Shown here in pieces: positions 7,913-10,816 of a DNA stretch of 41,187 bases. Made by a program: the position numbers and the translations under genes. Under the pieces are notes generated by a model, which searched no databases, had not been told where the DNA came from, and was given only the letters and a program-made list of their open reading frames with translations. Position 1 is the stretch's first letter, and each line of letters starts with the position of its first letter. Origin of the DNA: Candidatus Nanohalarchaeota archaeon QJJ-9 (GTDB lineage Archaea > Nanohalarchaeota > Nanosalinia > Nanosalinales > Nanoanaerosalinaceae); assembly GCA_022865275.1 (NCBI GenBank), contig JALIDQ010000004.1:1-41187 (forward strand), read 5' to 3'.

Positions 7913-9019
7913 TTACTGCTGTTGGATAACTTTCAGTCCAAGCTCTTCCATCTCTTCTTCAGCCTCTTTCTGTTCCTGTTCTACAGGGCCGAGGACGTAA
8001 GGGGATTCTACACCGGTGATGATTGAGATAACCTGGACCTTGCCTTTTAGTTCCTCGTTAAGCCTTGCTCCCCAGATGACCTGTGCCTGAGGATCTAGCT
8101 TTTCCATCACGGTCTGTCCTATATCGTTGATTTCGTTGAGCGATAGGTCGTTTCCGCCTTCTACGTGTAGTAGAGCTCCACTTGCACCATCGAATTCCAC
8201 GTCAAGGAGGGGGTTACTCAGTGCCTCTGCAATAGCTTCTTTTCCTTTGTTTCTAGTGTCTGATTCTCCGTATCCGACTACTGCAACTCCTCCTGAATGC
8301 ATGATAGACTTGACGTCTGCGTAGTCCAGGTTGACTAGGGAAGGCTTGGAGATTGTTTCCGTGACACCTTTTATCATGGTTGTTATAAGCTCGTCCGCTA
8401 CTCCGAATGCCTGGTCAAGAGGCATGTCTCCTGCAATATCTATCAGCTTGTCGTTTTCGATTACGATTGCGGTGTCTACGTGTTGCCTAAGTCTATAAAG
8501 TCCGTCTTCTGCTTTTTCCTTCCTTGCTCCTTCTATTTCGAACGGTAGTGTTACGGTTCCGATTACTATGCAGTCTTCGTCTTTTGCGATGTCGGCTAGT
8601 ACGGGGATTGCTCCTGTACCGGTTCCTCCTCCAAGTCCACATGTGAGGAATACCATGTCGGCTTCGTCAAACAGGCTTCTCAATTCGGAGCGGTTTTCTT
8701 CTGCTGCTCTTGCTCCCTGTTTAGGGTGTCCTCCTGCTCCTAGTCCGTTTGTGAGGTCTTTTCCGATTAGGATTTTTCTGTCAGCTTTAGAGATTTTTAG
8801 GTGCTGTTTATCGGTGTTGACTGCTATGGTCTCTGCTCCGTCTACTCCTTTGGTCTGCATTCTTGTGACCATGTTGTTACCTGCTCCCCCTATTCCGACG
8901 ACTAGTATCTTTGCATCTTTTACGTCGTCTAGCCCCTCCATTCCTGAAGGGTCCGGACTGTTCTGGTTGTTTGTGTTTGGATTTTCTTCCTCGGCCGCGT
9001 TCTCGATTATGGATTCCAT
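7913..9019 (-). CDS. ftsZ: Cell division protein FtsZ
   Basis: Tubulin signature LTCGLGGGTGTGAIPVLADIAK; GIGGAGNNMV. Likely start MESIIENAAEEE, with AAGGAG six nt upstream (ORF 7913..9052). Confidence 0.96.
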   Translation of the reverse strand: MESIIENAAEEENPNTNNQNSPDPSGMEGLDDVKDAKILVVGIGGAGNNMVTRMQTKGVDGAETIAVNTDKQHLKISKADRKILIGKDLTNGLGAGGHPKQGARAAEENRSELRSLFDEADMVFLTCGLGGGTGTGAIPVLADIAKDEDCIVIGTVTLPFEIEGARKEKAEDGLYRLRQHVDTAIVIENDKLIDIAGDMPLDQAFGVADELITTMIKGVTETISKPSLVNLDYADVKSIMHSGGVAVVGYGESDTRNKGKEAIAEALSNPLLDVEFDGASGALLHVEGGNDLSLNEINDIGQTVMEKLDPQAQVIWGARLNEELKGKVQVISIITGVESPYVLGPVEQEQKEAEEEMEELGLKVIQQQ

Positions 9020-9153
9020 CTTCATCTCCTTGTATGGTTTTTGGTGTAACATCGAAACTTTTTTTAAAAGCGCGATGCAATACTTTCTTAGTAACTGAGA
9101 AAGATCGGTTGGATATTCAACTTCGACCGAGAGAAATGCCTACATAAAACTAG

Positions 9154-9277
9154 TTGCCCAAGAATTCGTCTGAGTTTTGCCCAAAATTCAGCCGAGTTGC
9201 CTAAATGAGTTCCAAGCTTTTGCCCGAAAGCTTGTCTTGACTCGTGTTGCCCAGACACGAGACGAAACTGAACTCGG
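9154..9277. repeat. Degenerate tandem TTGCCC array forming successive hairpins
   Basis: TTGCCC/T at 9154, 9177, 9197, 9220, 9247 (spacing 23, 20, 23, 27). Hairpins CTGAGTTTT-GCCC-AAAATTCAG (9170-9191), CAAGCTTT-TGCCCG-AAAGCTTG (9213-9234), CTCGTGT-TGCCCAG-ACACGAG (9241-9261); CCGAGTT (9192-9198) pairs with AACTCGG (9271-9277). Confidence 0.75.
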
Positions 9278-9413
9278 ATATAGTGATTACTATGTTTTAA
9301 TTCTTTGTAACCATTTATTAATATTGTTCGACTCTAAACCTTGTTTTGTGAAACATGTTTTTTACCCGATGTTTTTCGACAGTTTTTTATGGCTATCCTG
9401 GCAGGACTTATTT

Positions 9414-10638: not shown

Positions 10639-10816
10639 GCCCAGGTGGCAGAGTCTGGTTCATTGCGCCGGATTCGAGCTTAGATGCGAGCCCTTCCCTC
10701 TAAGTCACTACGGTTCCACTCTCACTTCGTTCGAGTCAGGACCCCTAAAGGTTGTTTGAGATGACGAGATATCCGGTGGGCGCAAGCCCTCGCAGGTTCA
10801 AATCCTGCCCTGGGCG
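10639..10816 (+). tRNA. tRNA-Ser(CGA) with 92-nt intron at 37/38 (10679-10770)
   Basis: Acceptor GCCCAGG/CCTGGGC, discriminator G73; D-stem GCAG/TTGC; anticodon stem CCGGA/TCCGG with TTCGAGA loop after splicing; long variable arm GGGC-GCAA-GCCC; T-arm GCAGG-TTCAAAT-CCTGC. BHB: helix TTCG/CGAG flanked by bulges AG^C and AT^A. Confidence 0.9.

Follow-up and report, generated by a model that had tools for sequence, protein, structure and literature searches.

Our analysis shows that the ftsZ locus of small-genome archaea from at least three phyla carries an array in which one motif of about six letters is repeated three to ten times beside the gene; both the existence of this array and selection on it are well supported. 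The motif differs between lineages (GCCCA, TCCCA, CCCCCA, TGTCCAG, CGCCAA, AGTTCCA, ACGAGA, TTGGGGGA and others), and all copies within a genome agree. Judged from sequence, this pattern points to a previously undescribed regulatory element that would co-evolve with a partner.

The array was recognized in the window (the whole stretch of 41,187 nucleotides analysed, from Candidatus Nanohalarchaeota archaeon QJJ-9), where it occupies the upstream intergenic region of ftsZ. The gene lies on the minus strand at 7913..9019 and encodes Tubulin (PF00091) and FtsZ_C (PF12327) domains; its conserved start, MESIIEN, is at 9019, and the longest open reading frame starts at 9052. Those relatives of the encoded FtsZ that bear a name belong to the Nanohaloarchaea (SG9, M3_22, Nanosalina, Nanosalinarum and Nanoanaerosalina), on which basis we refer to the order of the window as Nanosalinales. 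The right-hand neighbour is a plus-strand gene for an aminoacyl-tRNA editing domain protein (PF04073; 9414..9839); because this neighbour varies among species, the linkage of the array is with ftsZ rather than with the PF04073 gene. Farther to the right, an Rfam tRNA match extends across 178 bases of the plus strand (10639-10816), is absent from the ARAGORN output and is probably an intron-containing tRNA gene.

Five copies of TTGCC(C/T) start at 9154, 9177, 9197, 9220 and 9247, within 100 bp and at spacings of 23, 20, 23 and 27. The first-pass annotation had reported five copies every 20–27 bp, which these positions confirm; 0/2000 shuffles contained five TTGCCY in 161 bp. As the motif is not enriched over the whole window (28 seen vs. 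36 expected, both strands), it is the clustering that constitutes the signal. Three of the five copies lie in the loops of plus-strand hairpins with unrelated stems: hairpin 1, CTGAGTTTT[GCCC]AAAATTCAG (9170-9191), contains one G-T pair and the copy at 9177; hairpin 2, CAAGCTTT[TGCCCG]AAAGCTTG (9213..9234), contains the copy at 9220; and hairpin 3, CTCGTGT[TGCCCAG]ACACGAG (9241..9261), contains the copy at 9247. The arrangement is exactly as first described, with TTGCCC in three loops and a different stem each time, and none of the dinucleotide shuffles (0/5000) produced a trio of hairpins with a common loop 4-mer and stems of 7 bp or more.

Folding of positions 9150-9280 gives −41.3 kcal/mol (z = −4.5) for the plus strand, and z = −1.3 for the minus strand. 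In the predicted plus-strand fold, the first motif copy (TTGCCC, 9154..9159) is unpaired; AATTCG (9163-9168) pairs with CGAGTT (9193-9198) around hairpin 1 in the minimum-energy structure, extending that element to 9163..9198; the third copy (TTGCCT, 9197..9202, plus strand) sits at the edge of hairpin 1, in the linker between helices; and GAGTTC (9207-9212) is predicted to pair with GAACTC (9270-9275), closing a domain around hairpins 2 and 3 (9207..9275, plus strand). The two segments previously proposed to pair across the array, CCGAGTT and AACTCGG, are indeed complementary, but the minimum-energy fold prefers two other closing helices.

In the order Nanosalinales, ftsZ was found by protein in 29/29 genomes, and 28 upstream regions were recovered. 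A plain DNA similarity search of 60 genomes matched only the genome of origin, so the homology of the array is invisible to BLAST; the array escapes sequence alignment because nothing but loop motif and pairing has been preserved. Of these upstream regions, 26/28 contain two or more Watson-Crick hairpins whose loops read YCCR, with a loop polarity of 74 plus vs. 1 minus, and the 28 loci together contain 72 perfect hairpins that have CCC or CC at the centre of the loop and at least five contiguous Watson-Crick pairs. Stem sequences vary between hairpins and between species, and pairs with both sides changed are retained. The suggestion that constant loops on variable stems reflect selection on structure withstands the comparison that was proposed to refute it: in the ftsZ upstream regions of relatives the array persists, with its loop motif and its pairing intact on stems of different sequence. 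A coding origin of the array was rejected, as relatives differ by indels and share no conserved frame. In the complete 973-kb genome of the relative G011, where 18 hairpins combine a CCC(A/G) loop with a stem of at least 6 bp, the ftsZ upstream region is the sole site with at least two such hairpins together, and it holds four. The array is absent from the sampled paralogous second ftsZ copies (L031, L032).

Members of two other archaeal phyla, whose genomes are mostly 0.5–1.4 Mb and which we infer to be DPANN, likewise have the array on the upstream side of ftsZ. Under hairpin rules set after viewing Nanosalinales and then left unchanged for the other groups and the controls, at least two Watson-Crick YCCR-loop hairpins were found at 22/~80 loci of the second phylum and 11/~28 of the third, at 0/24 loci of other archaea and at 3/60 of Halobacteria; these groups are samples of partly incomplete genomes, some loci are closely related, and the upstream windows contain a little coding sequence. 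Loop polarity was 83:20 in the second phylum, 29:3 in the third and 5:6 in other archaea. A motif-free test of loop sharing (p ≤ 0.01) was positive at 17/28 loci of Nanosalinales, 16/80 of the second phylum and 7/27 of the third; the corresponding numbers were 0/24 for other archaea and 5/60 for Halobacteria. The Halobacteria show a loop polarity of 26:8 yet have at least two hairpins at only three loci; this small excess may reflect their GC-rich background, and the array signal at the 60 ftsZ loci tested is at most marginal. No clear array is seen among the halobacterial loci (L241-L300), two of which (L259 and L261) share GTAAGAC[ACCC]GTCTTAC. Within the array-bearing phyla themselves, the array is absent or unrecognised at many ftsZ loci. 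In the 786-kb genome G078, which carries the motif ACGAG, the sole cluster of at least five copies is the one upstream of ftsZ.

Other readings would take the array for a product of chance, for palindromes of low complexity, or for an element of the CRISPR, integron attC or replication-origin type. Repeats and hairpins in an intergenic region give these a superficial likeness, but we consider them extremely unlikely given the shuffle results (0/5000), the single cluster per scanned genome and the conservation across phyla. A CRISPR array was rejected since the units share only ~4–6 bases and not long identical repeats, and a replication origin was rejected because in complete genomes Cdc6/Orc1 lies far from ftsZ (in G011, at about 1 kb vs. 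338 kb). In G078 (contig C2, L301-L340) the cumulative GC-skew minimum, at 706,795, is ~18 kb from the ftsZ array at 688,607; in G011 the minimum is not similarly close.

Comparison across lineages shows that the motif is conserved in its own right, even where hairpins are missing. Hairpin-loop motifs in the two further phyla include CCCCCA, TGTCCAG, TGTCCG, CGCCAA, TACCAA and TTGGGGGA; other loci there carry repeats without clear hairpins (AGCCCGA, TTTAGCCC, TAGTCCCAA, AAGTTCCA, AAGTCCAA and ACGAGA). That the motif itself is retained follows from the hairpin-free lineages (L132, L159, L164, L174, L178, L188 and L195), whose repeats keep the same orientation; the same lineages weaken the earlier idea of a purely cruciform-forming element. 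Mapped onto the FtsZ tree, the motif classes at 66 loci must have changed at least 13 times, a descriptive test with classes labelled by hand. Sister lineages may differ, as with AAACCC vs. ACGAG inside one family; TTGGGGGA is nested within the CCCCCA clade on the FtsZ tree and appears again in L200, whose family mates carry other motifs. In L119, L124 and L200 the loops read TTGGGGGA where relatives have CCC, which places the C-rich motif on the opposite strand in two separate families (L119/L124 and L200). Overall, copies are oriented 290 one way vs. 11 reversed, and their 214 spacings show no helical phasing (p about 0.5). The agreement of copies within a genome is the strongest hint of a trans-acting partner.

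We propose that this is an ancient regulatory array of small-genome archaea which is transcribed and, by offering a site in many single-stranded copies to a trans factor that co-evolves with it, regulates ftsZ, an explanation to which we give an even chance of being correct. An intergenic stretch of ~150–200 bp would be transcribed, as promoter-like signals suggest; its three to ten motif copies would be presented single-stranded, either in hairpin loops, kept open by stems that have no other role, or in spacers that lack structure; and the copies would jointly engage one partner, an RNA-binding protein or a small RNA. If the specificity of this partner shifted between lineages, all copies in a genome would shift along. 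By titrating or assembling the partner beside ftsZ, the array could adjust ftsZ expression. A multivalent binding array of this kind would explain most of the pattern: the copies are many, in one orientation, single-stranded by prediction and unphased, the stems are free to vary, the motif changes only in every copy together, and the location is fixed at ftsZ; the sponge-like role suggested in the first-pass annotation is in this respect plausible.

A promoter-like signal on the plus strand, consisting of a BRE (CGAAAC, 9053-9058) and a TATA element (TTTTTTTAAAA, 9059-9069), spans 9053..9069 and points from ftsZ into the array; an example of this ftsZ-side pattern elsewhere reads CGAAAT-GTTTTTAA, followed by TTAGAA ~30 bases on. 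The plus-strand BRE-TATA pattern is present at 14/28 loci of Nanosalinales, 59/82 of the second phylum and 14/28 of the third, and in the controls at 4/24 loci of other archaea and 0/60 of Halobacteria. Near the expected plus start site lies an inverted repeat, CTTTCTTAG-TAA-CTGAGAAAG (9083..9103). In Nanosalinaceae, TTCTA-NNN-TAGAA occupies the position of this inverted repeat, and short conserved dyads of the forms TTCTA-NNN-TAGAA and GGTA-NNNN-TACC (for instance at L009, L021 and L026) lie in the stretch that separates the array from the ftsZ-side TATA box; these dyads at the left array edge are possibly a DNA operator. On the other side, a TATA-like element on the minus strand (AATATTAATAAAT, 9313..9330) faces ftsZ through the array, and relatives have a far-side minus element, GAAAC-ATTTATAAA, together with an A-rich element at −10 spacing. 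The promoter-like signals are convergent and flank the array on both sides. Just right of the array, T-runs on the plus strand outnumber A-runs (14 vs. 1 of 27, 16 vs. 7 of 28 and 9 vs. 4 of 10); these may be a plus-strand terminator or a minus-strand −10 element.

This convergent layout, which is a prediction from promoter-like sequences, also suits a sense-antisense pair: the far-side promoter would yield an ftsZ mRNA with the array as leader, the near-side promoter a convergent antisense RNA, and the complementary hairpins would kiss through their constant loops, in the manner of CopA/CopT or RNAI/RNAII, controlling ftsZ translation or stability. A leader is plausible in view of the Shine-Dalgarno-like sequences at several ftsZ genes. 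If both strands must fold, one expects stems built largely of Watson-Crick pairs, without a clear preference between G-T and A-C, as is observed: internal wobbles number 36 G-T vs. 29 A-C, or 9 vs. 5 outside Halobacteria under a strict rule, applied since the loose hairpin finder inflates counts at loop-closing and outer pairs. The exchange of the C-rich loop strand between lineages is in keeping with such a pair and would be unexpected if a single RNA mattered. A precedent from E. coli is StfZ, a non-coding RNA whose gene adjoins ftsZ and which is antisense to it in cis (PMC9628754); StfZ is bacterial, and the description consulted mentions no repeated-loop array. However, antisense pairing alone requires neither alike loops nor their joint change, the repeats retained without hairpins are left unexplained, and a promoter-like box closer to the gene could drive ftsZ itself. 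We regard the sense-antisense pair as rather unlikely; both strands of the array may be functional. The plasmid-type systems CopA/CopT and RNAI/RNAII resemble the array in that both strands form stem-loops and convergent promoter-like signals lie on either side, but they have one or few loops, whereas the array has identical loops on unrelated stems beside a chromosomal division gene.

The measures of strand preference do not all agree. The plus strand is favoured by mean shuffle z-score (−4.7 vs. −2.3) and by array pair probability (0.91 vs. 0.79), and the minus strand by the consensus structure predicted for ten Nanosalinaceae (−21.25 vs. −14.03 kcal/mol). The last result, with more G-U pairs tolerated on the minus strand and a complete BRE/TATA/−10-like element at its far edge, would fit a minus RNA that is simply the ftsZ 5′ leader, with G-rich UUGGGC loops binding a translation factor and the plus signal being incidental. 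Given that the plus promoter-like signal is conserved over three phyla and that the plus strand folds better by the two former measures, we consider this very unlikely.

The array could alternatively act as DNA, offering double-stranded or cruciform sites to a lineage-specific DNA-binding division regulator. Its position in the ftsZ promoter region, the lack of strand bias among mismatches and the reversed orientation in two lineages are compatible with this, as is the case of CdrS, a ribbon-helix-helix protein that regulates haloarchaeal ftsZ through a single symmetric DNA site (PMC8406309, PMC7439475) and that, in Haloferax, is bound to DNA upstream of ftsZ1 (PMC8406309). The CdrS site resembles the array in being a regulatory sequence upstream of an archaeal ftsZ, but the site reported is one symmetric sequence and not an array. 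Moreover, one would not expect protein-binding sites on duplex DNA to have long self-complementary arms with unrelated sequences, the strongly biased orientation without helical phasing does not suit such sites (a phased operator array was rejected on the latter ground), and the hairpin-free lineages speak against cruciforms. A DNA-level array is thus unlikely in our view.

Among known systems, the transcribed multivalent array that we favour resembles CsrB/CsrC and RsmX/Y/Z, in which many hairpins or linkers likewise expose one short motif for multivalent binding; several hairpins of this kind are found in the array as well. CsrB-type RNAs expose GGA for CsrA, and their motif is nearly invariant across bacteria. 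The repeated GGA loops of CsrB/RsmZ are not found in the array, whose loops read GCCC/YCCR on the plus strand and UUGGGC on the minus strand; its motif, usually YCC(A/G), switches between lineages, and it is archaeal and lies beside ftsZ. To our knowledge, CsrA does not occur in archaea. By analogy, the array would work most like a CsrB-type sponge, yet it lacks the defining motif of that family. Bacterial C-rich-loop sRNAs also have repeated CCC-type loops and pair with Shine-Dalgarno sequences; in G011 the array motif is not complementary to the AGGTGA-type Shine-Dalgarno sequence. Pairing in trans at start codons was rejected, as the loop complement is not enriched there in G011 (TGGGC 0.61×, GGGCA 0.38×).

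At the gathering score, Rfam gave no match at the window array, where a snoU13 hit (E 0.32) stayed below threshold, and none in nine array loci. We found no earlier description of the array in the literature searched, chiefly papers available without subscription; the main text of the Nanoarchaeum equitans RNA paper refers to neither ftsZ nor antisense RNA. A conserved 266-nt nanohaloarchaeal intergenic sRNA, STRG.4577.1, is reported from halite metatranscriptomes, with no locus given in the excerpt of PMC7002113, and could conceivably be a transcript of the array.

In conclusion, we describe a candidate regulatory element of ftsZ in at least three phyla, at a time when the control of division in archaea with very small genomes is almost unknown. 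We suggest, tentatively and at slightly less than an even chance, that it represents an undescribed cross-phylum class of regulatory RNA that controls ftsZ through many copies of a recognition loop, the loops being rewritten together with a co-evolving partner. The concerted change of the copies would document, in nature, how a nucleic acid and the factor that reads it have evolved together, and would offer a direct way of finding that factor.
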